Of a stretch of DNA of 49,986 nucleotides, positions 1 through 49,986 are shown in pieces. The position numbers were made by a program, and so were the translations under genes. Numbering within the stretch: position 1 is the first letter of the stretch; each line of letters opens with the position of its first letter. A model generated the notes under the pieces. It saw nothing but the letters and a program-made list of their open reading frames with translations, had not been told where the DNA came from and made no database searches. Source of the DNA: a virus. Where the stretch lies: the IMG/VR virus record IMGVR_UViG_3300024317_000007, positions 1 through 49,986 of that record; one strand, written 5' to 3'.

Positions 1-135
1 GCTCCGTCCAGGCTCGCTCCGTCCAGGCTCGCTCCGTCCAGGCTCGCTCCGTCCAGGCTCGCTCCGTCCAGGCGCGCTCCGACCAGGCTCGCTCCGTCCA
101 GGCGCGCTCCGACCAGGCGCGCTCCGTCCAGGCTC
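1..135. repeat. 15-bp minisatellite, left end
   Basis: Nine full copies of a 15-bp unit (GCTCCGNCCAGGCNC on the plus strand). Only position 7 (T or A) and position 14 (T or G) vary. On the coding strand these change Asp/Val and Ser/Arg; the other 13 bases, including wobble positions, do not change. Positions 136 onward hold a degenerate unit leading into the N-terminal cap. Confidence 0.95.
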
Positions 136-284
136 GCTCGGTCGAGGTCCTCATGGCTCAAGTCCGCCTCGTAGAGATCGACGCCGGCTTTCACCGCCGC
201 CTCGACACACAGCTTCATCGAGCCGAACTCGCCCTCGAACCGGATCGCGCCGTTGAACCACGACTTGATTCTGAAGATGCTCAT
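1..284 (-). CDS. Pentapeptide-repeat protein, 5' part (gene continues across the contig ends)
   Basis: ATG at 284 follows GGAGGCGGCGA and overlaps the stop of the upstream gene as ATGA. The first ~45 residues (start MSIFRIKSWFNG, then FEGEFGSMKLCVEAAVKAG) match the N-terminal cap I know from phage pentapeptide-repeat proteins. Then come A-[S/R]-L-[D/V]-G repeats, which fold as a right-handed quadrilateral beta helix in this family. The frame runs to base 1 without a stop; the 3' part is at 49402-49986. Pasting the ends directly would shift the frame by one base. Closing them on the shared 126-bp tract (1-126 = 49844-49969) keeps the frame. Function is unknown; DNA mimicry is known for some family members but is not shown here. 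Confidence 0.85.
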   Translation of the reverse strand, partial: MSIFRIKSWFNGAIRFEGEFGSMKLCVEAAVKAGVDLYEADLSHEDLDRASLDGARLVGARLDGASLVGARLDGASLDGASLDGASLDGASLDG

Positions 285-1264
285 TCGCCGCCTCCATTCT
301 TCGAGTCCCGTTGTTTCTTCTTTTCTTCGGTGAACCGACGGAGCCACTCCGACTCGCTCTCGCCCTCGAGCCGCGGGAAGTCCGGGCGCGGCGGGCGAGC
401 CGAGCTCAGTCGCGCGCCGAGGACCGCCGCGTCGCCTTCGAGCTTTCGGAGGAGCTGCTCGCGCGCGGGGCCGTTGGCGTGGGGAACCGACCAGTCCTCT
501 TCGAGCGCGCGTCTCGTCCAGGCCGCCCGGTTGTCGGAATTCCTGGATCCCTCGACGACGTCAAAGACGCGCCCGACCGCGTGGGAGGCCGCCAGGGCGC
601 GCGCTACACCCTCGGCGAGGTCTATTTCCCGGAGAAGCTCGAAGGATCGACGCGGGACGACCTGTAGAAGCAGGGCGGCCCCTTCTCGGGAGGCCGGCTT
701 TCCGTCCTGATCGTCCCCCTCTTTCCGTTCCGAAACAACAACAGCAACCCCATCGTCCGTCCCCTCCGGTCCTGATTCCGGGGCCCCATCGGCGTGATTT
801 CTTCCGGAAGAATTCCGGCTGGCCGGGTCGTCCGGCACCTGTGTTTCCGGAGTTTCCTGTTTGTTGTTTCCAGGATGTCCAGGATAGGGGGAAGTCTGCC
901 TACTTTCTTCCGGAAGAATTCCGTGATCGCGCGCGTACTTCTGCCTCTGTTTCCGCTTTTTTTCATCGTAAATGAGGATTGCGCGCCCGGTGTGCTCCAT
1001 CCAATCGTGGATGGTCTTACCATCCCGTTCCAGGAATTTGGCCTCCCGAAGGGCGTCGGATAGCTTCCCGCGGGTCCCAGACCAGCCCACGGCGGCCTCG
1101 ATGGCCGGTCCGCCGCCCTCGATGACCCCCTTCTTCGCGTACTGGGCGGCCCACCGCCAAAGGCGGAGCGGGTAGATATCGGCGGTCGGTCCGATCAGGC
1201 TGATGAGCCGGAGCGTCTTCGGATGCTTGAAGTAGTCGACGTCGATCGGAATCTCGAATCCCAT
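281..1264 (-). CDS. Replication-initiator-like protein with winged-helix-type N-terminus
   Basis: 327 aa. The N-terminal ~110 residues (DYFKHPKTLRLISLIG, then YPLRLWRWAAQYA) resemble the winged-helix domain found at the start of many phage DnaD/O-type replication proteins. A Pro/Ser/Gly-rich low-complexity linker (about residues 120-200) follows, then a charged C-terminal part (about 210-327) with a basic tail. It sits at the end of the recombination block and overlaps the pentapeptide gene by ATGA. The DNA under the linker carries an out-of-frame 20-bp direct repeat, as expected if the origin lies inside the initiator gene as in lambda O. Role inferred from domain look and context; no ATPase motif is visible. 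Confidence 0.55.
   Translation of the reverse strand: MGFEIPIDVDYFKHPKTLRLISLIGPTADIYPLRLWRWAAQYAKKGVIEGGGPAIEAAVGWSGTRGKLSDALREAKFLERDGKTIHDWMEHTGRAILIYDEKKRKQRQKYARDHGILPEESRQTSPYPGHPGNNKQETPETQVPDDPASRNSSGRNHADGAPESGPEGTDDGVAVVVSERKEGDDQDGKPASREGAALLLQVVPRRSFELLREIDLAEGVARALAASHAVGRVFDVVEGSRNSDNRAAWTRRALEEDWSVPHANGPAREQLLRKLEGDAAVLGARLSSARPPRPDFPRLEGESESEWLRRFTEEKKKQRDSKNGGGE
798..923. other. Candidate replication origin inside the initiator-like gene
   Basis: The 20-bp word TTTCTTCCGGAAGAATTCCG occurs exactly at 798-817 and 904-923. The copies are 106 bp apart and are read in different codon frames (one gives ILPEES, the other RNSSGR), so protein constraint cannot explain the match. The word contains the palindrome CTTCCGGAAG. 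Between the copies are several GTTTCC words, and the segment is clearly less GC-rich than its surroundings. This resembles iterons plus an unwinding region. Confidence 0.45.
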
Positions 1265-3229: not shown

Positions 3230-3576
3230 TACGCCGACTCCTTCTTCGGATCCTTGGCCGCCTGGCCTTCGGCCTCGATGTCCTCGGCGGTCTTCCCGCC
3301 GGCCGGCTCCTTCGAGTCCTTGAACCGCCGGCGCTTGTACTTCTCGGAGGGCTTGTCGACATACCACTCGTTCGAGCCCCGGACGCGCGAGGACTTGAGC
3401 TTCATCACCTTCGCGAGCGCGACGGCCTCGTCCGAGAGCTCCCGGTTCTTCTTCCGGAGCTTCGCGATCTTGCCGTCGTTGTCCTCCATCTCGTCCTCGA
3501 TGTCCTCGAGGCGCTGATCCTGGGCGTTGAAGGTCCCCGGCAGCTTGAGCTGGTCCTTCCGCTTGATGCCTTCCAC
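3229..3576 (-). CDS. Hypothetical coiled-coil protein
   Basis: 115 aa from GTG at 3576 with an AAAGGAG site. Residues about 18-60 form a charged heptad-rich helix (RLEDIEDEMEDNDGK onward), followed by a Lys/Arg-rich stretch and an acidic-basic tail. It lies just upstream of the RuvC-like gene with a one-base-shared stop and start. It may be a DNA-binding accessory protein. No family recognised. Confidence 0.65.
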   Translation of the reverse strand: MEGIKRKDQLKLPGTFNAQDQRLEDIEDEMEDNDGKIAKLRKKNRELSDEAVALAKVMKLKSSRVRGSNEWYVDKPSEKYKRRRFKDSKEPAGGKTAEDIEAEGQAAKDPKKESA

Positions 3577-3642
3577 GATGGCTCCTTTCTCTTGGCCGCC
3601 TCTATCTCCGGCGCGCGGAACGCCCGCGCGCTTTTTCGATCT

Positions 3643-3673
3643 GTCGTCCAGGACCTGAGCGGATCCCGGCGAC
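3643..3673 (-). terminator. Intergenic stem-loop, GTCGCC family
   Basis: Begins 3 nt after the stop of the Cro-like gene. In transcript sense a GTCGCC arm pairs with GACGAC through one wobble, with a GGATCC-containing loop, followed by AGAT and an A-rich run. It is one of several near-identical elements after stop codons in this genome (17197, 23269, 30090). Confidence 0.6.
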
Positions 3674-3676
3674 GGT

Positions 3677-4006
3677 TCAGGCGATCGCCGACTTCGGGAG
3701 CTCGACGGCCACCGGCCGCGCCGGCTCGACCTTCGCGGCCGCGAGCGGGTTCTCGAGCTTGGCGAGCACCCGCTCCCGGATGAGCGCCGGCGCCTTCGAC
3801 GCCCAGGCGAACTCGACCAGGTCCTCGGCGTGCACGCCGTAGAGCCGCGCCGCGCGGATGAGGATCTTGACCGAAGGCGCGTTGACCCGAGAGAGCTCGA
3901 TTCCCGAGATGTAGCCCTTCACGGTTCCGAGCTTCTTCGCCGCTTCGGTGAGGGTGATTCCCTGGCCCTGCCGGAGGGCCTTCATCAATTCGCCGAACTT
4001 GACCAT
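3677..4006 (-). CDS. XRE/Cro-type transcription regulator
   Basis: 109 aa with an AGGAGGTTTCCG ribosome site. Residues about 5-60 form a helix-turn-helix of the Cro/CI class: FGELMKALRQGQGITLTEAA, then KLGTVKGYISGIE and SVKILIRAARLYGV. No peptidase or dimerisation domain follows, only a Pro/Ala-rich tail. It is the only clear HTH regulator here, so it may govern the leftward promoter at 11.2 kb or act as an early-late switch. Being deep within the early operon suits a Cro-like role better than a CI-like maintenance repressor. Confidence 0.8.
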   Translation of the reverse strand: MVKFGELMKALRQGQGITLTEAAKKLGTVKGYISGIELSRVNAPSVKILIRAARLYGVHAEDLVEFAWASKAPALIRERVLAKLENPLAAAKVEPARPVAVELPKSAIA

Positions 4007-4027
4007 CGGAAACCTCCTGTCGTGGTT

Positions 4028-4627
4028 CTATTCGCGCCCGCTCCACGGGTCGCGATACTTGAGACTCGCAAGCTCGAAAACGGACTGTTCCGTCGGAGTC
4101 TGGATCGTCGGCATGGCGGCCTTTTCCTTGTCGGTGAAGTGGCCCCGGTGCGGCGCGGAGCGGACCCATCCTTCGTGGGACGGCCGGCCCTGATTGCCGA
4201 GCTGCGTGACGACGTACTCCGAGAAGGTCGCCGAGCCCGTGCGGATGAGGAGGATGAGCCCCCAGTTTCCGGCCGAGGCGGTGAAGAGGTCGACCTTGAT
4301 CGGCTCTCCGTCGGGCGTCGGCCAGAGGAACTTCCGGTACTTCTCGCCGTGGTTGAGCGTGTCCCTGCCGGCCAGGACCTCCGTCAGGCGATCCCAGAGC
4401 CGGTTCTTCCGGACCCTTTCGATCGCGCCGAAGAGGTCGCCGGCGACCGCCTGTTCGACGACCTCGATCTTCGGGATCGCGACGAGCTCGATGTCGCCGA
4501 TCATCTTCAGCCGGCGCCGGAGGGAGCCGGCGACCTCGATCCGCTCACAGGCCGGCCGGAGGAGCTCGACGAGCTGCTCGGCGATGCCCTGGACGGCGAT
4601 CGCCGGACGCTTCGTTCCTTCGCTCAT
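4028..4627 (-). CDS. DNA polymerase X (beta)-like nucleotidyltransferase
   Basis: 199 aa. GSLRRR at 34-39 followed by GDIEL (Asp45, Glu47) is the nucleotide-binding and metal-binding signature of the Pol beta superfamily, with a third acid at KVDLF (Asp113). NWGLILLIRTGS further on matches the conserved end of the palm/fingers in phage PolX-like proteins. It lacks the helix-hairpin-helix lyase domain of full PolX. ATG at 4627 overlaps the HNH gene stop by ATGA. A role in gap filling during recombination or repair is likely; it cannot replace a replicative polymerase. Confidence 0.75.
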   Translation of the reverse strand: MSEGTKRPAIAVQGIAEQLVELLRPACERIEVAGSLRRRLKMIGDIELVAIPKIEVVEQAVAGDLFGAIERVRKNRLWDRLTEVLAGRDTLNHGEKYRKFLWPTPDGEPIKVDLFTASAGNWGLILLIRTGSATFSEYVVTQLGNQGRPSHEGWVRSAPHRGHFTDKEKAAMPTIQTPTEQSVFELASLKYRDPWSGRE

Positions 4628-5475
4628 TTGCGCTCCCTGAGATCGCTCTTCGCCGCGGCTTCCGCCTGGCGCCAGGTCTCGCTATCGCGGACCGTCTTGA
4701 TCCACTCCTCGTCCTCGTCGGAGAGCTTCTCGCCCGTCGCGTTCACCACGAACTCCGGGTCGATCCGGAGGTAGGTCTTGAGGATCCCGTGGGCGAGCTC
4801 GCGGCCGCGGACGGCGCGGGGCTTCGAGTCGTCGATCGAGGCGAGGAGCTTCCGCGCGCGGCCGTTGCGCGGATAGGAGGAGACGTCGACGCCGAACCAC
4901 GCGAGGAGCTTGTTCCGCCGGCGGAAGGGGGCGTTGAAGATGATCCCGACCTGGTCGAGCACCGGGTACCAGTAGCCGTCGAAGATCTTCCGGAGACGGT
5001 TGAGCTTCGACGAGAAGCGGTTGAACTCGGCGGTCCCCGCGCCGGCGCGCCGGTGCTGCGCCTCGCTCCACTCCGGATTCCGCATGTGGTGGAGGACCGC
5101 GACGTCGCCGTGGGTCCCGAGCGCGATGTTCTCGGGCTTGTCGTTGAGCTCGTTCCCGTCGACGTGGATGACGATCTTCCCTTCGGGGACGGGGCCGTTG
5201 TTCTTCTCCCACCACCAGCGGGCGTAGAGCTTCCATCTGTGCTGAGGCGGGCCGTCGAGCCGGACCTTGATGAACCGGACGAGCTGGCGCTTGCCGTTGA
5301 CGAGGTCGCTCCGGAGCGTGACGGTCCCGACAGGCAAGGACCGCTTCAGGGTCCCCTTGGCCTGGCCGATCCGAACGGCGCCGAAGGGGTCGCGCCTGAC
5401 GCGCCTATGAATTTTCGGAGGGCCGCTCGGGCCGGCCCCCACTCCCCGGTCGCACAACCTCTCTCCGTCCACCAC
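4624..5475 (-). CDS. HNH endonuclease
   Basis: 283 aa from GTG at 5475. Residues about 85-125 carry the HNH core: NNGPVPEGKIVIHVDGNE, then NDKPENIAL, as in HNH_3 homing-type enzymes. The C-terminal half is rich in Arg and Trp and unrecognised. Its stop overlaps the PolX-like gene by ATGA, so it belongs to the operon and does not interrupt another gene. It could be a free-standing homing endonuclease or a recombination or packaging nickase. The exact start is uncertain because the first ~60 residues are low in conserved features. Confidence 0.7.
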   Translation of the reverse strand: MVDGERLCDRGVGAGPSGPPKIHRRVRRDPFGAVRIGQAKGTLKRSLPVGTVTLRSDLVNGKRQLVRFIKVRLDGPPQHRWKLYARWWWEKNNGPVPEGKIVIHVDGNELNDKPENIALGTHGDVAVLHHMRNPEWSEAQHRRAGAGTAEFNRFSSKLNRLRKIFDGYWYPVLDQVGIIFNAPFRRRNKLLAWFGVDVSSYPRNGRARKLLASIDDSKPRAVRGRELAHGILKTYLRIDPEFVVNATGEKLSDEDEEWIKTVRDSETWRQAEAAAKSDLRERK

Positions 5476-5563
5476 TCAACCCTCTCTTCCGGCCAGGTCC
5501 CCCGGGCTCCTACCTCGAAGATTCGGTCCTGACCTCCGCCATCTCTCTCAAGCCGTCCAGCGA

Positions 5564-5590
5564 CCCGCCCGAGGTTGCCGATCGGGCGGG
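5564..5590 (-). terminator. GC-rich terminator-like hairpin
   Basis: Nine-base-pair stem CCCGCCCGA / TCGGGCGGG with a 9-nt loop, about 40 nt after the SbcC-like gene stop and upstream of the HNH gene. No T-run follows, so termination may be partial. The 150-bp gap 5476-5628 holds no gene that I can see. Confidence 0.55.
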
Positions 5591-5628
5591 GCCCCGGAAG
5601 GCTACAGGCCCCCCAGGAAACGTAGAGG

Positions 5629-7878
5629 TCATGCCTTGGCGTACTCGGTCGCGATCGTCTTCCAGCCGGGGAGCTCGCCGGCGGGCGCGCGGGGCGTCAT
5701 GACGACGGCCGCGGTCAGGCCCTTTCCGATCGCTGAGATCCCGCGGAGGAGTTGCGCCAGATGCCGGTCGTCCGTCTCACCGGCCTCGACGAGCAAGATC
5801 CGGACCTGTGCCTCTCGGGCGAGGATCATCGACGCGGTGAGCGCGGCGGCGAAGAACGACCACTCGCCACCGGAGAGGGCCTGGATCTGGACGTCTTTCC
5901 CGTCGGGCGTCTGCCATCCGATCGAACAGCTTCCGGCCCCCGCGCGTATGAACGGGGTCTCCTGACGGCCGGCCGCCTCGAGGAAGGCCCGCACGGTCCC
6001 GAGGAGCGCGCCGCCGCTCTCGGAGATCTCGACCTCGCGCTGGCGCTGCAGGGCCCACTCGATCGCCGTGAAGACGTCGCGCGAGGCCTGAGCCTCCTCG
6101 ATCGACGATAGGGCGCTCTGGATCTCACGATGAACCGCCTGGGCGTTGACGAGGCGCCCGAGCTCGCCCGCGGTAGCCCTGAGCTTCGCCTCGAGAGCTT
6201 CCATGCCTTCCGGGGCGGGCCCTGGGTCGCCGGCGCCGGCGAGCTGGTCCTGGAGGGATGCGAGGCGTCGATCGAGGGAGAGCTTCTCCCCGCGGGCGGC
6301 CTCGAGCGAGCGACGGTGGGTCGCGATCTTCCCCTCGAGATCCTGGCGCTCGGCGAGGAGGCGCGTCCGGGTCGTTTCGTAGGCGCTTCTCGCCTTGGCG
6401 TCGGCCTGGCGGAGCTCGTCCCGGAGCTTCGTCGCCTGGGCGCCCTTCTCGCGGCTCTTCTCGAAGAGGGCCTCCTTCTTCTCCTTCAGCTCTTCGCGCT
6501 CCTTCTCGATCTCCTTGACCTCCTTCTGGATCTGGGCCAGGACGATGCCCGCGGCTTCGAGATCGTGTTCGAGCTCCTCGGGAGTGGCGCCGATCGAGAG
6601 CCGAGCCGCGTCGCGGAGGCGCTTGATGCACTTGGCGAGCTTGCCCTTCTTGGCGCTGTCGGAGAGGGAGTCGAGCTCGGCGGCCACGGCCAGGACTTCC
6701 GCCCAGGTCGATTGCTTGGCCGCCTGAAGGCGCGTCGTCAGGATGTCGACCTTTCGCTGGGCCTCGACCGTGCTCGGCTTCTCCGGGAGCTTGATCTCGG
6801 CAGCCTTGCCCTCGAGGTCGAAGGCTTCCTTCCGGAGCTTCTCAGCCGCGGAATCGTCGCTCGCCGCCGGCGTCTGCATGATGTCGAGGGCCTTCCGGGC
6901 CGCGGCGGCTTTCTCCTCGAGCTCGGCGATTGCCTTTCCGTGGACCGCTTCCGCGTCGAGCGCGACCTGATTTGTCCGATCGGCCATCTCGCGGACCTGG
7001 ACGAGCGCGGCTTCGGCCTGGCGGCGCGCCGCGGATTGACGGCCCCATGCGCTCGACCGCTCCTGAAGGGCGCCAAGATCGCGCTGGAGCCTCGCCTTCT
7101 CGCCCTCGAGGCGTTCGATGTCGCGCGGATCCGGCTCGGGGATCTCGACAGCCCTCTTCCGGAGCTCGTGCGCGGCCGCCTCCTTCTGTTTGAGGCCCGT
7201 TGCCGCGTCGCGCTTCTCTTCGTTCGCCCAGGCGAGAGCGCCCTGGATTCCGGCCTCCGTGATCTTGGCCCCGAGGATCGAGGCGTGCTCCTTGAGCGCC
7301 GCCTTGTGGCGGTCCGTGACCATCGGAAGCGCCTCGAGGTAGTCCGCCGGCATCCTGTCCTCCGGGAGGTTCGGGATGAGGCGCATGACGGTGAACCGGG
7401 CGACGGCGCGCGCGATCTCCTCCGGTGACCGCTGACCGGCGGCGAGGAGCTGCTCGATGCGCGCGGACCGCTGGTTCGGCGTCGCGGTCAGGAGCTCCCG
7501 AATGTCCAGGCACTCGGCGACGTCCTGCTCCTCGGCGCCGAAGATCCCGAGGATCGCCTTCGCCGTCTCCGTGGGTTTCGCGTTCCGGAGCCATGAGGCC
7601 TCCGCGCCCGCGATGAAGCCGCGGTCCTGCCGGTCGAGGGAACGCCTGACCGTTCGGCCGTCGTCGAGGACGAGCTCGACCGACATCGAGCCGTTGTGCA
7701 TGAGCGCGGCGGTATCGACCGGCCGCTTCCCGAGCGCCGGGACGTAGCCAAGCGCGCCGAAGCGGATCGAGTCAGCGATCGTTGACTTCCCCGACCCGTT
7801 CGGGCCCGTGATGAGGTTCCTCGGCCCGAGCGAGACCTCGTGGTCCACGCCTTTGACCCCCTTGGTGATGAGCTTCAT
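5629..7878 (-). CDS. SbcC/Rad50-like SMC-family ATPase
   Basis: 749 aa from ATG at 7878, with AGGAGGCGGAGT just upstream. Walker A GPNGSGKST at 25-33 and, near the C-terminus, the ABC signature LSGGE and a Walker B strand ILLVEAGE. Between them lie several hundred residues of heptad-rich coiled coil. The CxxC zinc hook of Rad50/SbcC is not visible at the coil apex. It lies directly downstream of the putative annealing protein and nuclease, so it probably acts with them in DNA end processing. There is no SbcD-like phosphoesterase in the window. Confidence 0.8.
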   Translation of the reverse strand: MKLITKGVKGVDHEVSLGPRNLITGPNGSGKSTIADSIRFGALGYVPALGKRPVDTAALMHNGSMSVELVLDDGRTVRRSLDRQDRGFIAGAEASWLRNAKPTETAKAILGIFGAEEQDVAECLDIRELLTATPNQRSARIEQLLAAGQRSPEEIARAVARFTVMRLIPNLPEDRMPADYLEALPMVTDRHKAALKEHASILGAKITEAGIQGALAWANEEKRDAATGLKQKEAAAHELRKRAVEIPEPDPRDIERLEGEKARLQRDLGALQERSSAWGRQSAARRQAEAALVQVREMADRTNQVALDAEAVHGKAIAELEEKAAAARKALDIMQTPAASDDSAAEKLRKEAFDLEGKAAEIKLPEKPSTVEAQRKVDILTTRLQAAKQSTWAEVLAVAAELDSLSDSAKKGKLAKCIKRLRDAARLSIGATPEELEHDLEAAGIVLAQIQKEVKEIEKEREELKEKKEALFEKSREKGAQATKLRDELRQADAKARSAYETTRTRLLAERQDLEGKIATHRRSLEAARGEKLSLDRRLASLQDQLAGAGDPGPAPEGMEALEAKLRATAGELGRLVNAQAVHREIQSALSSIEEAQASRDVFTAIEWALQRQREVEISESGGALLGTVRAFLEAAGRQETPFIRAGAGSCSIGWQTPDGKDVQIQALSGGEWSFFAAALTASMILAREAQVRILLVEAGETDDRHLAQLLRGISAIGKGLTAAVVMTPRAPAGELPGWKTIATEYAKA

Positions 7879-7896
7879 ACTCCGCCTCCTTCTATC

Positions 7897-7956
7897 CGAG
7901 CGTCCACTCTGGCGGTCCGCCGGATTCACCGGACGGACCGCCAACGTTCACGCTCG
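7897..7956 (-). terminator. Long two-tier stem-loop after the annealing-protein gene
   Basis: The outer stem CGAGCGT / ACGCTCG encloses an inner stem of GGCGGTCCG and CCGG pairing with their complements (7911-7923 with 7929-7942, one bulge). It starts 2 nt after the stop at 7959 and ends just before GGATAGAAGGAGG, the ribosome site of the SbcC-like gene. Position and GGATA tail match the other stop-codon stem-loops. Confidence 0.65.
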
Positions 7957-7958
7957 AC

Positions 7959-8972
7959 CTAGCCGAAGAGGCCTTCGCCCTTCGGCTTCTGCGGGGCGCC
8001 GCCTTTGGCGGGCGGCGGGGGAGCGGCTTTCTTGGGCTCGCCCTGGGCCTCGGCGACCTCCTTGTCGCGGATCCGCTTGGCCTCCTCGGGCGAGATCGTG
8101 GAGGGGTCGGCCTTCGGCGTCGTCTCGGCGGGCTTGTCCGGAACGAGAGCATCGGCGATCGCCTTCCCGGTGATCGGGCCCTCGACCTCCTTCTTCGGGT
8201 CGATGGGCGGGAAGAGTTCCGTGATCGTCGCCTCGCCCTTCTCGAGAGCGTTCTTGTCGCCCTTGAAGGCGGCGATGTCCTGAAGCGACCAGAGCGCCTT
8301 CTCCTTGCCGGCCTTCGCGATGACCTGCTCGGGCGTGGCCCCCTTCGCCGTGAAGTAGCTCATCACGGAGTCGGCGTACTCCTGGAGCTTCTGTGGATCG
8401 AGGCCCTTGACGACGGCCTCCTTCGCCTTCTCGATCGCGCGGTCGACCAGCCATCGCGGGACGGCATTCACCACCACGTTACGGATCGCTTTCGACTGAC
8501 CGATCTGAAGCGCCATGTCGAGCTTGCGGTCCGGATCGAAGTTCCCCTGGACGACGTTCTTTCGCTGGCGGAAGACGCGCTCCATCTGAAAGCCCTTCTC
8601 GATGTCCACGAAGCGCGGCGTGAGGATGAACGTCCCGTCGGTCTCCTGGAAGTCGACCGTGACCGCGCAATTCGTCCATTCCCTGGCGAGGCTGTTCGCC
8701 AGGCCGATCGACGGGCCTTCGATCCGGTTGCCCTTCTTGTCCGTCCAGGCGTAGTAGAAGGAGTCGCCGGCGTACTGTGCCTCGCGGTCGATCGCCTCGA
8801 CGATCTTGTCGAGGTTGCGGGGCTTCTGGACCGAGATCGCCGTCACGAACGGCGTCCCCGCCCTCATCAGGGTCTTTCCGCCTTCGAGAACTTTGAAGGG
8901 GCCGTCCGGGGCGAATCCTCCATCCTCGAAAGGCTCGGCTTGTGCCTGGACCGTGCTCTTTCCGGTGCTCAT
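7959..8972 (-). CDS. Putative single-strand annealing/recombination protein
   Basis: 337 aa from ATG at 8972 with AAAGGAGATTTC. The conserved core, YYAWTDKKGNRIEGPSIGLA then REWTNCAVTVDF, is a pattern I know from phage proteins next to recombination exonucleases. A central region follows (FRQRKNVVQGN, then IGQSKAIRNVVVNAVPRWL), then a Pro/Lys-rich tail ending GEGLFG. A disordered C-terminal tail on an annealing core resembles phage SSAPs that contact SSB. It lies between a PD-(D/E)XK nuclease and an SbcC-like ATPase. The assignment is mostly context plus a remembered motif; no fold can be proven by eye. Confidence 0.55.
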   Translation of the reverse strand: MSTGKSTVQAQAEPFEDGGFAPDGPFKVLEGGKTLMRAGTPFVTAISVQKPRNLDKIVEAIDREAQYAGDSFYYAWTDKKGNRIEGPSIGLANSLAREWTNCAVTVDFQETDGTFILTPRFVDIEKGFQMERVFRQRKNVVQGNFDPDRKLDMALQIGQSKAIRNVVVNAVPRWLVDRAIEKAKEAVVKGLDPQKLQEYADSVMSYFTAKGATPEQVIAKAGKEKALWSLQDIAAFKGDKNALEKGEATITELFPPIDPKKEVEGPITGKAIADALVPDKPAETTPKADPSTISPEEAKRIRDKEVAEAQGEPKKAAPPPPAKGGAPQKPKGEGLFG

Positions 8973-8983
8973 GAAATCTCCTT

Positions 8984-9814
8984 TCAATCCTCGAGCTTGG
9001 CCGCAGCGGCCATGCGCTCACTGTTCACAAAGGGGCATGTGTCCCAGAACGGACACCACTTGGGGGAACAGATCCAGGAGCCGACGCCGGCGGGGGCGAA
9101 GAGGCCGGCTTGCACGGACCGGAGCATGATGTTCGCGCGGTTGATGAGGACCTGGACGTCCTTCTTTGTCCGCGTCGATTCGAGATGCTGCGCCTTGGGG
9201 GTCTTGAGGTCGACCAGGACCTCGAGGTCGAAGCCGGCGGGCTCGTGGCCCTTGAGCTTCGTGTAGAGGAGCCAGTATTGCGTCCCCTGAAGAGACTCGT
9301 CGATGTCCTTCTGGCTCTTCGAGCGGCCCGAGGTCTTGAGGTCCTTGATGCGGTTATCGGTTGTCGAGAGGTCCAGGCGGCCGCCGAAGACCACTCCGTT
9401 CGGGAGCGTGATCTTCGCTTCCTGCTCGATCAGGTCGGGCTTCATCGCCGGCGCGACGCGGTCGGCATAGAGCCCGGTGAGCGTCTGGACCGATTCCACC
9501 GTGCGCGCCAGAACGGGACTGGCGCCGACGCTGAGCTCGTCGGGCGTGAGCCGGAACCCCTCCTTCGCCTTCTTCTCCTCGAAGCCGGCGATCGCGATGT
9601 CGATGATCTCCTTCTTGGGGAGGTCCTGGCCCTGAGCCTTCTTGTGCTCGTGGTTCTTCTGCGCGCCGACGTGGACGGCGCCGCCGCGGAGGGCCGCGGT
9701 CCCCGGATAGGCCGGCTCCTTCTCGATGTGCTTCCGGCGGAACATCTCGCCGCAGAGCTCGAAGTCGTTGAGCGCGGACTGGCGGACTTCAAGGGTCGCC
9801 GACGGTTCCGTCAT
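8984..9814 (-). CDS. PD-(D/E)XK exonuclease with Cas4/AddB-like four-cysteine cluster
   Basis: 276 aa from ATG at 9814 (ATGA overlap). Core motifs: GGRLD (Asp148) and DLK (Asp158, Lys160) form the PD-(D/E)XK site, with His48 upstream in GGAVHVG. One Cys at 21 and three near the end (249, 254, 260) have the spacing of an iron-sulfur clamp as in Cas4 and AddB. Q177 in GTQYWL fits the RecB-family QxxxY motif. It probably makes 3' single-strand ends for the adjacent annealing protein. Confidence 0.75.
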   Translation of the reverse strand: MTEPSATLEVRQSALNDFELCGEMFRRKHIEKEPAYPGTAALRGGAVHVGAQKNHEHKKAQGQDLPKKEIIDIAIAGFEEKKAKEGFRLTPDELSVGASPVLARTVESVQTLTGLYADRVAPAMKPDLIEQEAKITLPNGVVFGGRLDLSTTDNRIKDLKTSGRSKSQKDIDESLQGTQYWLLYTKLKGHEPAGFDLEVLVDLKTPKAQHLESTRTKKDVQVLINRANIMLRSVQAGLFAPAGVGSWICSPKWCPFWDTCPFVNSERMAAAAKLED

Positions 9815-10116
9815 TTGGCCCTCCCGATTCGCTCGACGAGGGCCTCGTAGGAGTAGGGCCCCTCGAGCTTCTGGATCTGCCGGCCGTCGCGGAAGACGAT
9901 CGTGGTCGGAACGTCGGTCACATTCAGGCCCTTCGCGATCGTGGGGTTCTCGTCCACGTCGATGAGGAGCGTCCGCATCGCCATCTCCTCCGAGAACCGC
10001 TTGAACTCCGGGAGGAAGTGGTCGCAGGGGATCGAGTTCGGCATGACGAAGGCGACGATTAGAACGCCGTCCTCCAGGAGCTCCCTCTCGAGGCCGAGGT
10101 CGTTCGTCCGCTTCAC
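9811..10116 (-). CDS. Thioredoxin-like protein with single active-site cysteine
   Basis: 101 aa from GTG at 10116 (GTGA overlap). The pattern VLIVAFVMPNSIPCDHFLPE, then LLIDVDENPTIAKGLNV and DVPTTIVFRDG, is a thioredoxin fold with its cis-Pro loop (VPTT). Where thioredoxins have CxxC the protein has SIPC, so the first Cys is Ser and only the resolving Cys remains. It therefore cannot do ordinary dithiol exchange alone. It lies between a zinc-ribbon protein and the four-Cys nuclease. Confidence 0.7.
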   Translation of the reverse strand: MKRTNDLGLERELLEDGVLIVAFVMPNSIPCDHFLPEFKRFSEEMAMRTLLIDVDENPTIAKGLNVTDVPTTIVFRDGRQIQKLEGPYSYEALVERIGRAK

Positions 10117-10412
10117 GCGAGCACCGCCTGGGCGGCCGTGAGGCCGAAGAAGACCGAGTGAACGAAGAGGACCGCAAGCGCCGCGCCGGCATCCTTCGCG
10201 CGGAAGCGGGCCTTGACCTCCTCCGGCATCGGCTCCGACTTGTAGAGATGCGGGTACGCCTGATGGAGGATGCGGCGACCCGAAGTCCCGCGCCGGCGCG
10301 CCTCGAGGACGCGGGCCCAAACGGTGCGCGCCTTCTGACATCCGGCTGTAAACCAGTGGGCCCGGAGGAAGATGAATAAGCTGAACGAGTGGCCGCAGGA
10401 TCCACAGGTCAT
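10113..10412 (-). CDS. Small protein with N-terminal zinc-knuckle and C-terminal membrane segment
   Basis: 99 aa from ATG at 10412 (ATGA overlap), starting MTCGSCGHSFSLFIF. A CxxC pair lies in the first seven residues. The end, ALAVLFVHSVFFGLTAAQA, is hydrophobic enough to span a membrane. The middle is Arg-rich. Function unknown. Confidence 0.6.
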   Translation of the reverse strand: MTCGSCGHSFSLFIFLRAHWFTAGCQKARTVWARVLEARRRGTSGRRILHQAYPHLYKSEPMPEEVKARFRAKDAGAALAVLFVHSVFFGLTAAQAVLA

Positions 10413-13516: not shown

Positions 13517-15427
13517 TTATTCGCTGATGAGAGGGATTGGAGCGATCTGCGGAGCGATGAGCTCGGCGCCTCCTGAGAGGACCAGCCGAACGGTTGCGAG
13601 AAGCTCCCCCTCCGGGAGCTCCGACGGGATGACCGGGATTGCGATCAGGCCGCGCTCGGCGTCGAGGACCTTGCCGTCGAGATCAAGTCCGGTCACGGCG
13701 TAGGGGCGCCGGAGCTCGAGAGAGACGGCCGTCACGTCCGAGAGATCGAATGGGAGCCCCGCGTCGGTAACCCTGAGCTTGAGGACGTCCGCCTTCGCCT
13801 CGAGCGCGATCGTCTTCCTGCCGGCCGCGCGGCCGCGCTTGCCGAGGACGACGAGACTGAGCGAGAGGCCGAGCTGGAGAGAAGAGACCGGCGTCGAGAC
13901 GACGGTCCCGCCGATCGTTCGAGAGATCTCGAGGACGTAGGGCTCGTCGATCGCGCTCCTGGCCTTTACGCCGGCAGAAGAGGTCATCGACATCTCCCCA
14001 CGGTGGGCGACCGACGTATCCGACAGCATGTCGGCCGCGGCCTTCGCGAAGACCCTGCAATCCGAGGCGAACGTCCAGGACGCCTGTTTCAGGATTCGGC
14101 CGTCGGAGTCCTTCGTGACCGATGCCTGGGCCTTGACCCGCCCGTCGGAGGTTACGTCTTCCTCGCCGCCGTTCGTCCCCACCTTGGCGTTGGAGAATAG
14201 AGAGGTCGACGCCACCGCAAGATTCCGCCCATCGGATGCCAGAGAGGTTGAGGCTCTCGCCTTCGCCCTGCCGTCAGACGTTCCGGTCGTAGAGGCGCCG
14301 GCCTTCGCCCGGCCGTCGGAGGTTTTCGTGGCTGAGGCGATGGCCTTCGCGCGGCCGTCCGATGCGACTGTCGTCGAGGCCTGTCCGAGAATTCTCCCGT
14401 CGGAGGTCTTTGTACTCGAGGCGGGAGAAAAGACCCGACCGTCGCTCGCCTTCGTCGTCGAAGCCGCAGCTTTGATCCTTCCATCGCTCGTGGACGTCGT
14501 GGACGTCTGAACGCGCGCGCGCCCGTCGGACGTCTTGGTCGTGGAAGCCTGAGCCTTGACCCTTCCGTCGGAAGCCCCCGTCGTCGACGCCTGAGCCTTC
14601 GTCCTGCCGTCGGATGTCTTTGTGGTGGAGGCTTGGGCTTTCGCTCTTCCGTCCGAGGTCTTCGTCGTCGAGGCCTGGGCCTTCGCTCGGCCATCCGAGG
14701 TCTTCGTGGTGGACGCCTGAGCTTTGGCTCGCCCGTCGCTCGTCTTGGTCGTGGACGCTTGCGCCTTGACGCGGCCGTCCGATGTTTTCGTGGTCGAGGC
14801 CGTCTGGACGCCGCGGACGGCGACGAGGATCCCGTTGTTGATCGCGCCAGCTCCGGACACGGTGCAGGTGCGCGAGCCGGTGGCGCCGGCCGCGGCCTGT
14901 GTCGCGCTCGCGTCGCCGACTTCCGGCCGCGAGTTGGTGTTCGGCCCGTCCTGGTCCTCGACCAGGCTGTTCGACCATGACGAGAGGGTCAGCTTGGCTC
15001 CCACGCCGGCGAACATGAGGAGGAGGGAATTTGGATTGACCGTCGTGACCTGGTCGGCGGTGCACGTTGTCGAGCTCGCGTTCGCTCGCCAGGCGCCGAC
15101 GACATCCATTCCCGTTCCGGCGGTCGAGGCGTTCTGAATGGCGATGATGAAGGCGGAGATCCCGCTCCCCGACGTGTGGGTCACGGTGGGCGCGGTATCG
15201 CCGGTCTGGAGGCGGCGCCGATAGAGAGCGGTCTGGAATCCGGAGCCGTTCGTCTTGACGACGTCGATGAGCGTCCAGCCGGACACGGAAAGCGCGACGT
15301 TATCGAGCGTCGCGACGACCAGAAGGCCGATGTCGTTGTTCTGCCAGCCAGTCGGGAGGGCCGGAGAGACGTTCCCGCTCGCGGCGGCCGAGACGGCGCC
15401 GACAGCGCGGACGGACGGATTCGCCAT
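13517..15427 (-). CDS. Fibre-like structural protein with 14-residue SDGR repeats
   Basis: 636 aa. Residues 1-207 form a beta-rich globular domain ending GILVAVRGVQT. Residues 210-405 are fourteen in-register 14-residue repeats of type ASTTKTSDGRxKAQ, then a few degenerate copies to about 473. The C-terminal ~160 residues form another globular domain (YVLEISRTIGG, then SLELRRPYAV), as in phage proteins that close fibres or baseplates. It is probably a virion fibre near the end of the tail module. The repeats differ at wobble positions, so they are old and protein-selected. Confidence 0.65.
   Translation of the reverse strand: MANPSVRAVGAVSAAASGNVSPALPTGWQNNDIGLLVVATLDNVALSVSGWTLIDVVKTNGSGFQTALYRRRLQTGDTAPTVTHTSGSGISAFIIAIQNASTAGTGMDVVGAWRANASSTTCTADQVTTVNPNSLLLMFAGVGAKLTLSSWSNSLVEDQDGPNTNSRPEVGDASATQAAAGATGSRTCTVSGAGAINNGILVAVRGVQTASTTKTSDGRVKAQASTTKTSDGRAKAQASTTKTSDGRAKAQASTTKTSDGRAKAQASTTKTSDGRTKAQASTTGASDGRVKAQASTTKTSDGRARVQTSTTSTSDGRIKAAASTTKASDGRVFSPASSTKTSDGRILGQASTTVASDGRAKAIASATKTSDGRAKAGASTTGTSDGRAKARASTSLASDGRNLAVASTSLFSNAKVGTNGGEEDVTSDGRVKAQASVTKDSDGRILKQASWTFASDCRVFAKAAADMLSDTSVAHRGEMSMTSSAGVKARSAIDEPYVLEISRTIGGTVVSTPVSSLQLGLSLSLVVLGKRGRAAGRKTIALEAKADVLKLRVTDAGLPFDLSDVTAVSLELRRPYAVTGLDLDGKVLDAERGLIAIPVIPSELPEGELLATVRLVLSGGAELIAPQIAPIPLISE
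14213..14800 (-). repeat. Coding tandem array, 14 x 42 bp
   Basis: Encodes the fourteen contiguous ASTTKTSDGRxKAQ units (residues 210-405). The SDGR core is constant while the last four residues (KAQ, RVQ, FSP, LGQ, NLAV) vary. DNA identity between units is limited by synonymous changes. Degenerate units continue down to about 14000. Confidence 0.9.
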
Positions 15428-43950: not shown

Positions 43951-45144
43951 TCACTCGATCGTGATCGCGGGCCTCGTCAGGTTCTTCGCGGCTTTGCCCG
44001 TCATCTTCTGCCACCGCCGAACGGCGGCGTCGACGTAGACGGGCTCGCTCTCGATCGCAAGACAGATCCGCGCGAGCTTTTCGGCGGCGATCATGACCGT
44101 TCCGCTGCCGGCGTACGGATCGAAGATCGTCTCGCCCGAGGTCTTCTCGAGGCACCACTTCATGAGCGCGATCGGCTTCTGCGTCGGATGGACCCGGCGC
44201 TCTCCGTGCTCGCTCGCCTTCACCATGCCGATCCAGCGATGATGGAAGATCCGCACTGCGCCCTTCAGGTTCGTCCAGGCGAGCTCCGCGTCGCCGAAGT
44301 CGCCAAGGTCCATCTCCTCTTTCTTGTCCCAAATGAGCCAGGCCGAGCTCGACGGAAGACGCTCGGCGTAGTAGTTCGCCCCGAAGAAGACGGCCTGGCG
44401 CGCGAGCGGGACGAAGGGCCGCGGGTCGAAGGGCTCGCGGTCACCCTCCATCGGCTTGTAGATCCCGACCTTCACGATCTTCCCGCCGGCGAGTCGGTTC
44501 TTGCCGAACGGCCTCGAGGCACCGATCGCTCGATCGCCTTTCAAGATGTCGATGCCGTAGGGCGGATCCGCGATCAGGACGTCGAGCTTCCCGGCGCCGG
44601 CGAGAATCCGCTCGCGGTCCGGGATCTGGCGCGCATCACCGCAAAGGAGACGGTGCCGGCCGAGCTCCCACAGGTCGCCCGTTTGCGTCGTGGCCGTATC
44701 AGCGACTTCGACGGGGGTGTCCTCCTCTTCCGTACCGTTCAAGACGGAGCTGTGAATGTCCATGATCTCGCCCGGGTCGAAGCCGGAGAGCGATAGATCG
44801 AGCTCCGTCGTCTCGAGGCCCTTCAGGAGCTCGGCCAGGACCGGCAGATCGAACTCGCCGGCGAGGTTCTGATTGTTGAGCGCGACATTGAGGAGCCTCT
44901 CCTTCTCCGGCGTGATCTCGAGCACGACGCACTCGACCGACTTCTCGCCGCGCTTCTCGAGGATCCGGAGGCGCTGGTGGCCGCCGACGACGGTGTACCC
45001 GGTCTTCTTGTTGACGACGATCGGCTCGACCAGGCCGAACTCGTCGATCGACCTCTCGAGCTTGGCGAGGGCGGCGTCGGAGATCTTTCGCGGGTTGTAC
45101 TTCGCGCGCTTGAGCTTGGCGAGGGGGAGGGTTCGGAAGATCAT
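43951..45144 (-). CDS. ParB-N domain fused to DNA methyltransferase
   Basis: 397 aa from ATG 45144 (ATGA overlap). Residues 1-100 form a ParB/Srx-type domain with GGHQRL at 54-59. The methyltransferase follows: DPPYG at 193-197 (catalytic motif IV), HPTQKP at 319-324 and FDPYAGSGT at 341-349 (SAM site). Motif order IV then I marks the beta class, adenine-N6 or cytosine-N4. Such fusions are common in phages. The ParB part may find DNA or hydrolyse nucleotides. Confidence 0.85.
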   Translation of the reverse strand: MIFRTLPLAKLKRAKYNPRKISDAALAKLERSIDEFGLVEPIVVNKKTGYTVVGGHQRLRILEKRGEKSVECVVLEITPEKERLLNVALNNQNLAGEFDLPVLAELLKGLETTELDLSLSGFDPGEIMDIHSSVLNGTEEEDTPVEVADTATTQTGDLWELGRHRLLCGDARQIPDRERILAGAGKLDVLIADPPYGIDILKGDRAIGASRPFGKNRLAGGKIVKVGIYKPMEGDREPFDPRPFVPLARQAVFFGANYYAERLPSSSAWLIWDKKEEMDLGDFGDAELAWTNLKGAVRIFHHRWIGMVKASEHGERRVHPTQKPIALMKWCLEKTSGETIFDPYAGSGTVMIAAEKLARICLAIESEPVYVDAAVRRWQKMTGKAAKNLTRPAITIE

Positions 45145-45443
45145 GGCGTCACCGCCGTGAGCGCGGCGCGGCAGATCGCGAGGGGCGCGGTCTCCCCGCT
45201 CTCGGTTTCCGAGTCGATGAAGTAGGAGGTTTTGGACGCCATCCATTTCATGGGGCCGATCTCGTAAGGCGCGATGGAGAGTTCGAGCTTCTCGACGACC
45301 TCCCACGCATCCGCGATCCGCGTACTCGGGGACCAGAGCACACCAACCTCGGCCGCTTTGAGGCCTTCTCCGCTCCATCCCATGATTTTCTCGGCGATGA
45401 GCAAATCGAGCTCCGGACCTGGTTTGAGCTTGTAGACGTCCAT
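45141..45443 (-). CDS. Phage ABA-sandwich domain protein
   Basis: 100 aa from ATG 45443 with AAGGAGG eight bases away. ELDLLIAEKIMGW, then SPSTRIADAWEVVEKLEL and APLAICRAAL, are the conserved landmarks of the Phage_ABA_S family, which has no known function. It overlaps the methyltransferase start by ATGA. Confidence 0.75.
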   Translation of the reverse strand: MDVYKLKPGPELDLLIAEKIMGWSGEGLKAAEVGVLWSPSTRIADAWEVVEKLELSIAPYEIGPMKWMASKTSYFIDSETESGETAPLAICRAALTAVTP

Positions 45444-47517: not shown

Positions 47518-47807
47518 GGCTGCTCCCCGGGCTCGCGGAAGAAGGACGTCACGATCGCGTCGGGGATATGCGCCTTCAGGATCCTCGCCGCCTCCCGGGA
47601 GAGCGCCTCGCAGACGTCCTTCATGAGCGGGACCATCGGGGACTCGGGCTTGGAGATCAGGATCCGAATGGTGATGACCTCGCCGAGGAGCGCCATCGCG
47701 GCCGAGAGCGTCTCCTGGCTGATCTTGCAGCCCGTGTCGAGATCCGGGAGCTGTTTCCGGAGGGCGGCCCGGAGCTTTCGGATCTTCTCGAGGTCGATCT
47801 CGCTCAT
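47514..47807 (-). CDS. Small hypothetical protein
   Basis: 97 aa from ATG 47807, overlapping the HerA-like gene stop by ATGA. Helical (MSEIDLEKIRKLRAALRKQL, MKDVCEALSREAARILKAHI). Tight coupling downstream of the ATPase gene suggests that the two may work together. No family recognised. Confidence 0.6.
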   Translation of the reverse strand: MSEIDLEKIRKLRAALRKQLPDLDTGCKISQETLSAAMALLGEVITIRILISKPESPMVPLMKDVCEALSREAARILKAHIPDAIVTSFFREPGEQP

Positions 47808-49294
47808 AGCTTCCTCAGCCTCACAAGCTCCCCTTCGGTCTCGGCCAGGCCGTGCCGGCGGAGCCAGGAGAGGCCGTCGCGAAAAGTCGTCGTCCGTGGA
47901 CCGACGACGGAGAGGCCGGCGAGCTGTGTACGGGTGAGCTCCCCGCGCTTCATGAGCGTCTCGAGGAGCCGGCGGTTCACCCCGCGGCCGGCACGTTCCA
48001 GCCATGGCGCGTACGCCCCCTCGTCGACGGGCGACGCCCCCTCGTCGACGGGCGTGATCTCGTCGAAGAGGCGCTTGAGCATTGTCCAATACGGCTCGAG
48101 GGCCTTCCGGCACAGGGCGACGCGATCTTCAGATCTGGCGCGGAGCCGGCGTTCCCGGTCGAGCTCGTCCCGGAAGTTGGTGACTTGCTTCTTGAGGTTG
48201 CCGTTTTCGAGAGCGAGCTCGGCGACCCTGTGACGCTCTTCCGTGAGAGCATCCGACGCGCCGGCGAGCGCGTTCGAGACGCCGGCATTCGCCCCGTGGA
48301 GAATGCGCTTGAGCTTCGGGTTCTTGGCGAGCTCCCGGATATCCTCGGCCGCCTGAACAAGCCTGGGAGGAACCGGGACCGACGCGACGCTCTTCGTCAA
48401 TTGCTTCCGCACGCGCGCGACGAACTCGTCGACTGGCGCGAGCTCGACATCGCGGAGCGGGACGCCAAGCCGGCGCGAGTCGCGGGGATGAAACGTCTCG
48501 CGCGGTCGGACCTTGATCTTCTCGAAGAGCTTCAGGAACCTCGGCGACCAGGCGTAACACGTCCCCGTCTCAAGATTCGCGAGATCCGTCAACATCGTCT
48601 CGTCGAAGTGCGCGCCGGTCGATTTGATCCAGTTCTTGTAGGAGTCCCGGTCGTGCGAGCTCTGAGTCGCGAACGCGAAGACCGTCTCGCATTGAGAGAG
48701 CGCCGCCTTCGCGATCGCCGCGCTCCGCTGTCCGAGGAGCGTCGCGCCGTACCCGTAGTTCCCGCCGAGCGTGACCAGGCGCTCGACGATCTCGGAGCAC
48801 TCGCGCCCGAGCTGATAGCTCGCGGTTTGCGGGATGAACTCCTGCGACTCCTCGATGAAGATCTTCCGGGGGATCTTCGCCTCGACCTCGAGGAGCGCCG
48901 CGACGAAGTCCCGGACGAACGTCCGCCAGATCGTCTTCGACGTCTTCTTCAGGTCGATGACCGCGAAGACATTCTCCGCGATCACGGCCTCCGCGATCTT
49001 TCGGCCGTCCCCTTTCTCGATCTCGACGTCGGCCCGCTCGCCGCCGAAGACCACGACAGGAAAGCCCCCGGGCTTCCCGTCCGGACGCGACCGAAGGCCC
49101 CACCAATTTCCGACCGGATCGAGCGCCACCCACGGCTGCCGGATCTTGCAGAGCTCCTCCGCCATGACCAGGCCCAGGTAGCTCTTACCACTCTCCCGGA
49201 TGCCGAGGATCGCCGTCGCCTTCGTGACTTCGTCGAGGGGGAGCCCGAGCCGGTCGCCTCCCGACACCAAGTTCCCGATGTAAAGTCCCTTCAT
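47804..49294 (-). CDS. HerA/FtsK-like ATPase with coiled coil and C-terminal winged helix
   Basis: 496 aa from ATG 49294 with GGAGGCGGCG. GIRESGKSY at 31-39 is Walker A; KIFIEESQEFIP is the Walker B strand with EE in place of DE; LVTLGGNYGYGATLLGQRSA then CETVFAFATQ are the sensor and arginine-finger region of HerA-type ATPases. A coiled coil (HRVAELALENGNLKKQVTNF) and a winged-helix end (LTRTQLAGLSVVGPRT) follow. No HAS-barrel or NurA-like nuclease partner is next to it. It could pump DNA or act in exclusion of other phages. Confidence 0.75.
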   Translation of the reverse strand: MKGLYIGNLVSGGDRLGLPLDEVTKATAILGIRESGKSYLGLVMAEELCKIRQPWVALDPVGNWWGLRSRPDGKPGGFPVVVFGGERADVEIEKGDGRKIAEAVIAENVFAVIDLKKTSKTIWRTFVRDFVAALLEVEAKIPRKIFIEESQEFIPQTASYQLGRECSEIVERLVTLGGNYGYGATLLGQRSAAIAKAALSQCETVFAFATQSSHDRDSYKNWIKSTGAHFDETMLTDLANLETGTCYAWSPRFLKLFEKIKVRPRETFHPRDSRRLGVPLRDVELAPVDEFVARVRKQLTKSVASVPVPPRLVQAAEDIRELAKNPKLKRILHGANAGVSNALAGASDALTEERHRVAELALENGNLKKQVTNFRDELDRERRLRARSEDRVALCRKALEPYWTMLKRLFDEITPVDEGASPVDEGAYAPWLERAGRGVNRRLLETLMKRGELTRTQLAGLSVVGPRTTTFRDGLSWLRRHGLAETEGELVRLRKL

Positions 49295-49398
49295 CGCCGC
49301 CTCCGTTTTCTCCACCAAGTCCACCCTATCGCCAAGAGCGCCGCCGTCAGTCCCGCGGCCGCGCCCCATGCTTGCGCCGTCCAGTCGATGTCGCCCAC
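49291..49398 (-). CDS. 35-residue membrane protein before the HerA-like gene
   Basis: GTG at 49398; TGA overlaps the ATPase start by ATGA. MGDIDWTAQAWGA leads to one membrane helix (AAGLTAALLAIGWTWW) and a run of Lys/Arg (RKRRRR), giving a clear inside-positive orientation. The start site is weak (AAGG at eight bases). Could anchor the ATPase at the membrane. Confidence 0.5.
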   Translation of the reverse strand: MGDIDWTAQAWGAAAGLTAALLAIGWTWWRKRRRR

Positions 49399-49401
49399 GA
49401 T

Positions 49402-49986
49402 TCAGACCTTCACCTTCGCGGCTTTCCCGCCGAATGCCGAGCGGATGCTCTTCAGCCACTCCTCGATCCACTCGGCCGCGATCCGCGCCGCGTCGTGCTT
49501 CTCCGGCGTGTCGCCCTTCTTGATCATCGCGAACCACGCCTCAGCCGGGCGGCCGCTGTCGGGCTTGAGGACGCCGAGCTGGCGGTAGTCGCAGCCGCGC
49601 GCCTTCGCGATCGTCCCGACGAGACAGGCGCACTCGCCCGTGTAGGTCGAGCCGTCGACCTTGCCGGCTTTCAGCGCCTCGAGGAGCGCGGGAACCTCCG
49701 CCGGCGCCGACGACAGCACGGCCCAGAGGTCGTCGCGGAACGGGGTCAGGCGCGCTCCGTCCAGGCTCGCTCCGTCCAGGCTCGCTCCGTCCAGGCTCGC
49801 TCCGTCCAGGCGCGCTCCGACCAGGCTCGCTCCGTCCAGGCGCGCTCCGTCCAGGCTCGCTCCGTCCAGGCTCGCTCCGTCCAGGCTCGCTCCGTCCAGG
49901 CTCGCTCCGTCCAGGCGCGCTCCGACCAGGCTCGCTCCGTCCAGGCGCGCTCCGACCAGGCGCGCTCCGACCAGGCGCGCTCCGTC
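49402..49986 (-). CDS. Pentapeptide-repeat protein, 3' part
   Basis: Continues the gene starting at 284. After the last A-R-L repeat at 49750 the chain goes [51 protein letters not shown], then [20 protein letters not shown] and [15 protein letters not shown] know this ~120-residue C-terminal domain from many phage pentapeptide proteins, so the two parts belong to one gene. With the ends closed on the shared tract the protein has ~20 or more repeats; the true number cannot be read here. Confidence 0.85.
49754..49986. repeat. 15-bp minisatellite, right end
   Basis: Fifteen full units (49754-49978) and a partial one. Same two variable positions as at the left end. The stretch 49844-49969 is identical to 1-126; after that the right end has an additional AG-type unit where the left end has TT. 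The mismatch shows either real repeat-number variants or an assembly stop inside the array. Confidence 0.95.

Follow-up and report, generated by a model that had tools for sequence, protein, structure and literature searches.

Phages carry a widespread and previously undescribed family of repeat-rod proteins, in which an array of short tandem repeats is followed by a conserved C-terminal domain. Within most arrays the units differ by amino acid replacement and hardly at all by silent change, most of the replacements change charge, and the array is rapidly rearranged between close relatives. We believe that the protein is probably an early-region rod under concerted turnover and selection for charge diversity, its likeliest use being to recognize, or interfere with, an intracellular partner that itself changes. 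A search of the open-access literature found no paper on hypervariable phage pentapeptide arrays.

The analysis started from the window, the whole 49,986-nucleotide stretch of viral DNA, which comes from a tailed phage and includes genes for terminase, portal, head and tail. A minus-strand PF00805 gene is split by the contig junction, with its start at position 284 and its stop near 49402. The N-terminal half begins at the ATG at 284-282, reads MSIFRIKSWFNGAIRFEGEFGSMKLCVEAAVKAG... and is truncated where the contig begins. In the C-terminal half (49402-49986, minus strand), which picks up at the other end of the contig, the last part is a conserved domain of some 115 residues. The features of the gene and its neighborhood are as follows.

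1-284, minus strand: N-terminal half of the pentapeptide-repeat gene, comprising the ATG, the N-terminal cap (MSIFRIKSWFNGAIRFEGEF...AAVKAG) and array (translation; PF00805, E 2e-17; cap aligned in 30 relatives)
132-146, minus strand: degenerate first unit LDRAS (translation)
1-131, minus strand: homogeneous 15-bp units on the N-terminal side, 8.7 units (TRF, translation)
49750-49986, minus strand: homogeneous 15-bp units on the C-terminal side, 15.8 units (TRF, translation)
49844-49969, no strand: 126 bp identical to 1-126, followed by 17 bp with one additional LVGAR unit (sequence comparison)
49405-49749, minus strand: conserved C-terminal domain, helical in an AF2 model, with no Pfam family or PDB match (profile and fold searches)
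281-1264, minus strand: upstream open reading frame with a PHROG replication-initiation-protein match, whose stop overlaps the repeat-gene start by ATGA
4624-10405, minus strand: early-region neighbors in DNA metabolism, namely an HNH endonuclease (4624-5475), an SbcC-like ATPase (5629-7944) and a PD-(D/E)XK exonuclease (8984-10405)

Both halves match PF00805 well above the curated cut-off (E 2e-17 for the N-terminal half and 3e-20 for the C-terminal half). The window holds 15-16 or more homogeneous units, against the at least eight consecutive A(D/N)LXX-type units expected of a pentapeptide array. TRF reported a 15-bp period at both contig ends, with 16 copies and 93% match at 49747-49986 and 9.8 copies and 92% match at 1-147. 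The first-pass annotation had recognized a real 15-bp array but gave it too short an interval, 49754-49986; on the minus strand the array runs through 131-1 plus 49986-49750, with the LDRAS unit at 132-146. The homogeneous unit on this strand is CTGG[A/T]CGGAGCG[A/C]GC, which encodes L-[D/V]-G-A-[S/R]. The claim that 13 of the 15 bases are fixed and that both variable bases cause replacement was confirmed in the homogeneous units, where the alternatives are GAC/GTC (Asp/Val) and AGC/CGC (Ser/Arg). There are zero silent differences across the 15 complete homogeneous units, giving a piN of 0.088 and a piS of 0.000. The same annotation's four unit types appear in the register S/R-Leu-D/V (SD 7, RD 4, SV 2, RV 1), but the register LxGAx gives only three (LDGAS 9, LVGAR 4, LDGAR 2), as V always precedes R in the window array. 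Leucine and alanine point into the interior of a pentapeptide beta-helix. Both are invariant across the window units, and the varying residues are the outward-facing ones.

Both contig ends bear the array because the contig begins and ends within a single gene. Bases 1-126 equal 49844-49969, and the last 17 bp of the contig add one LVGAR unit and then rejoin the start sequence; the exact terminal overlap of the window measures just 8 bp. Most likely the two ends show the same locus, assembled twice from a genome that is circular or circularly permuted, and the difference of one unit between the two versions is either population variation or an assembly tip. A repeat shared by the genome ends as a biological feature, as previously proposed, gives way to a single gene split at the junction. 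Twenty-two family contigs also stop inside this gene. The N-terminal part was matched for 11 of them, in at least 10 cases at the other end of that contig, which strengthens the single-locus reading of the window ends. Exact terminal overlaps inside the array were found for L091/L078 (111 bp), L094/L011 (124 bp) and L098/L037 (117 bp), and such overlaps would let a contig pass for a complete genome with direct terminal repeats. An origin of the 126 bp as k-1 of a k=127 assembly graph is compatible with the window but does not explain the 111, 117 and 124 bp of these three overlaps, and remains a suggestion. In 40 of 146 contigs a contig end lies upstream of the C-terminal domain at a distance of no more than 300 nt, and in 3 of 146 one lies downstream at no more than that distance. 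Short-read assembly breaks at the array.

The family was opened by a two-sequence alignment of the C-terminal domain, and the resulting profile retrieved 93 viral contigs. Two further profiles brought the total analyzed to 148 distinct records, about 150 phage contigs. With the domain as a single-sequence query, a scan of the viral contigs gave no match and searches of phages gave one record. The environmental carriers number about 150 phages, to which a few prophages are added; of deposited phage isolates, the collection searched gave only one. The family includes the isolated Bordetella phage vB_BaM-IFTN6 and a Nitrosovibrio genome. The domain was present in 2 of 399 Burkholderiales genomes, which indicates that it is mainly phage-borne, and a plasmid search with it gave no matches. 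The window domain shares 40-67% identity with 47 relatives, and the N-terminal cap can be aligned as well. Thirteen positions are invariant in 48 sequences (E18, G29, G33, Y36, G38, C40, C42, L43, G45, E70, G79, P82 and W94). No Pfam family was found for the domain, nor any PDB relative by sequence profile or by fold. The profile of PHROG 31265 matches the N-terminal half (3e-12) and that of PHROG 7713 matches the array and the start of the C-terminal domain (3e-16); the domain alone has no PHROG match. Both are phage families without an assigned function, and their matches rest largely on the repeats.

In the AF2 model of a short relative, L007 (pLDDT 89), a beta-hairpin-helix cap is followed by a regular repeat rod and then by a C-terminal domain that is helical. 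The modeled rod has one strand residue per five and matches models of viral pentapeptide proteins, so that the beta-helix is a predicted one. Three relatives (L048, L054 and L056) carry arrays of 28, 17 and 37 hexapeptide units before the same C-terminal domain. Their unit is V-[S/F]-G-[D/N/E/K]-A-[R/W/E/Q], and its variation is almost wholly replacement.

In the window alone, two random variable columns would both be nonsynonymous with a chance of about 0.48, and the replacement-only pattern is significant solely across the family. Among 114 arrays that are nonredundant at 95% C-terminal identity, piN exceeds piS in 107 and piS is zero in 81. The median piN is 0.137 and the median piS 0.000, and the ratio of means is 0.27 (bootstrap 0.16-0.37). 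The three variable codons of the first 66 arrays hold 326 replacement and 29 silent variants, where 89 silent variants were expected; 18 of these 66 arrays show some silent variation. The opposite holds for ordinary Burkholderiales chromosomal pentapeptide arrays, for which piS exceeds piN in 17 of 17, typically about 0.6 versus 0.4; this control leaves out L262 and L282, whose source is the single genome in which the C-terminal domain is present as well. In the adjacent C-terminal domain pN is lower than pS in 8 of 9 relative pairs, so silent changes do build up beside the array. Because the arrays share descent, p-values overstate their independence, and array-level counts and the control weigh more. 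The frozen third bases bear out, at the family level, the earlier view that homogenization is recent and continuing. As codon position is invisible to processes acting at the DNA level, selection on the protein would have to be involved.

The replacements are also biased in kind. Charge is changed in 286 of 338 single-step replacements between unit variants (85%), where 176 (52%) would be expected, and the commonest are D/N, R/S, D/G, G/R and D/V. Twelve arrays, that of the window among them, share the D/V plus S/R alphabet, and their frozen third bases form at least nine different signatures. This indicates that the choice of residues outlasts the silent background, which turns over from one array to the next. 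Over the 114 arrays the mean net charge is -0.25 per unit; 13 arrays are net positive and 101 are not. Autocorrelation of residues and of charge detected no period-4 (one-coil) order, the order of units being near random, and like charges at lag 4 are neither avoided nor favored (combined z +1.0, n=92). The two variable sites had been likened to a two-bit code on two faces of the beta helix. This picture finds no support, the unit order having no period-4 structure, and the alphabet is not two-bit in general, since relatives vary at three positions with up to 3-4 residues.

Pairs of close relatives indicated how fast the arrays change. Ten contig pairs have a 100% identical C-terminal domain over the compared length, and their arrays differ in five and show no change over the compared units in five. 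In nine of the ten, identity extends over 1.1-1.4 kb counted from where that domain begins, the exception being L038/L040, which differ downstream. Among the changed pairs are L027/L029 with 10 versus 21 units, L032/L033 with 11 versus 7 units and L117/L120 with unit gains and losses, lengths that are uncertain in metagenomes because differences may be collapsed repeats. L047/L050 differ by seven substitutions in 3,064 bp, every one in the array and every one a replacement, and L217/L219 differ by two replacements. Such replacement-only substitutions are harder to ascribe to collapse, but chimeric paths could produce them. The five unchanged pairs are identical over 10-18 compared units. L016 and L034 have unrelated patterns despite 99% identity of the C-terminal domain. 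The suggestion that this might be a variable protein is thereby upheld for the family, in which array length and pattern differ between phages with identical or near-identical flanks. The window itself has no such partner: its exact unit pattern was sought in other viral contigs and not found, 24 kb of its sequence gave no megablast hits among phage records, and searches with the terminase or the upstream open reading frame yielded no close relative, the nearest terminase being 48% identical.

Duplicated blocks of up to 17 units were detected in 7 of 53 arrays at p<0.01, a share that is a lower bound because arrays with long repeated blocks are less likely to be assembled intact. The variable sites within a unit are linked. 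Linked sites and block duplications fit what unequal exchange would give.

Two further observations concern repeats in related elements. Three related elements in the isolate record set IMG 2844200831 (L229, L244 and L245) have near-identical upstream flanks and different arrays, of 9, 8 and 31 units. Downstream of the repeat-rod gene, L038 has another tandem repeat at 3529-4132, in multiples of 24 bp, which differs between L038 and L040.

The gene lies among replication and recombination genes. In addition to the window neighbors listed above, the neighbors in relatives include exonucleases, a DNA polymerase exonuclease subunit, RecT and ERF, and in Bordetella phage vB_BaM-IFTN6 the repeat gene is near repressor, Ead/Ea22-like and Rha-family genes. 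The replication and recombination neighbors point to an early, intracellular role. RecT was found in 8 of 42 genomes (one of them below the curated cut-off) and ERF in 6 of 42. The first-pass annotation had named the phage's own annealing enzymes as a cause of array change; this is not borne out, as the window matches neither RecT nor ERF and 14 of the 42 genomes have one. Elsewhere in the window, a second in-frame minisatellite occupies 14259-14801 within an open reading frame at 13517-15427 (minus strand; PHROG 30105), with 42-bp ASTTKTSDGRAKAQ-like repeats whose units are diverged in the ordinary way. A ParB-like domain fused to a DNA methyltransferase is encoded upstream of the terminase (43951-45378, minus strand). 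A large open reading frame downstream of the repeat gene (47804-49537, minus strand) has a weak PHROG terminase match and reads like a P-loop ATPase.

One account of the window is an ordinary recent expansion, in which the two variable sites are meaningless founder differences in a freshly amplified gene. It accounts for the frozen third bases and suits the window alone (P about 0.48), but the same bias in 107 of 114 arrays, 81 of them without silent variation, the opposite bias of ordinary bacterial arrays and the excess of charge switching already contradict it at the family level, and we regard it as improbable. A diversity-generating retroelement or another templated mutator would explain why the variation is so local and biased toward replacement. 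The reverse transcriptase family PF00078 is absent from all 42 genomes, the window included, and the variable bases (G/A, C/A, G/C and A/T) extend beyond template adenines. A retroelement is thus already contradicted, although a mutator of another type would remain, and templated mutation as a whole is extremely improbable. Tail fibers commonly bear variable solenoids, which would suit a structural or receptor-binding (tail or spike) repeat of the virion that alters host attachment; the gene sits among replication and recombination genes in the window and the examined relatives, apart from the window's tail genes, and this makes a virion role very unlikely.

The main alternative to recognition is that heterogeneity serves folding, since uniform units would place like charges above one another on one side of the solenoid. 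The toggles are indeed mostly swaps of charged for neutral residues, and the arrays are only mildly acidic on average. Yet stacked residues lie four units apart, where like charges are not avoided, a result that speaks against this alternative; the near-random unit order does so too, and the wholesale replacement of patterns between relatives is left unexplained. We consider a folding role unlikely, though less so than the other alternatives. A DNA mimic, an acidic rod like MfpA or Qnr that blocks gyrase or a DNA-binding defense enzyme with its charge tuned to the target, would draw on the fold class shared with the gyrase inhibitors reviewed in PMC8145042 and on the 101 of 114 arrays that are not net positive. 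The arrays are weakly acidic with many arginines, 13 of the 114 are net positive, and the C-terminal domain has no sequence match to any PDB chain. The strongly acidic DNA-like surface of MfpA and Qnr is seen neither in the window array, with a net charge of -5 over 15 units, nor in the family. The mild and sometimes positive net charge is a poor fit to a classical acidic DNA mimic, which is a rather doubtful explanation. For the recognition rod that we favor, unequal recombination or slippage among near-identical units would turn the array over quickly and erase neutral variation, while selection on the protein would keep the charge alternatives, so that each lineage would show its own charge pattern on a constant scaffold. 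The rod might recognize or hinder a changing intracellular partner, for example a host defense factor or a protein of another prophage. The conserved cap and C-terminal domain would do the constant work of oligomerizing, anchoring or signaling.

The family shares features with several known systems. Like the PF00805 proteins MfpA, Qnr and AlbG, the phage proteins are built of A-x-L-x-x units of the right-handed quadrilateral beta-helix class, with the fold here predicted, and have an N-cap, a rod and a helical C-terminus in the AF2 model. Whereas the ordinary PF00805 members examined have diverged units and an excess of silent change, the phage units are homogenized and vary at replacement sites alone, and the phage rods carry a conserved C-terminal domain with no Pfam or PDB relative. 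The in-frame tandem repeats of Borgs are perfect, or imperfect through silent variants, and are mostly disordered (Schoelmerich et al. 2023, PMC9879509). Both are fast-evolving in-frame minisatellites in mobile elements that collapse in short-read assembly, but the phage rod varies by replacement only, on a predicted folded solenoid (PMC9879509 for the Borg side of the comparison). The phage-borne variable protein surface resembles the products of diversity-generating retroelements, without the reverse transcriptase and with variable columns (G/C, G/A and C/G/T) that lack the adenine-specific signature. TAL effectors are made of near-identical 34-residue helical repeats with repeat-variable di-residues. 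They too are solenoids of near-identical repeats with few variable residues each, rearranged by recombination, whereas the phage units are five-residue beta-helix units in random order with no sign of a linear target-reading code.

Fast-evolving phage proteins are known mostly as receptor-binding tips or retroelement targets. The protein described here differs from those in being an early-region protein with a homogenized repeat and replacement-only, charge-switching variation. Genes of this kind are routinely cut in two by assembly, and contigs ending in the array can mimic shared terminal repeats. A broader proposition, which we hold only tentatively, is an undescribed and widespread phage diversity system. 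Here a constant intracellular scaffold would display a recombination-shuffled charge pattern on a beta-solenoid, selected in an arms race or in self/non-self discrimination, between phage and host or among co-resident prophages, and would have stayed out of sight in databases because the array interrupts short-read assembly. The family offers a testable case of concerted evolution and diversifying selection jointly maintaining a combinatorial protein surface.
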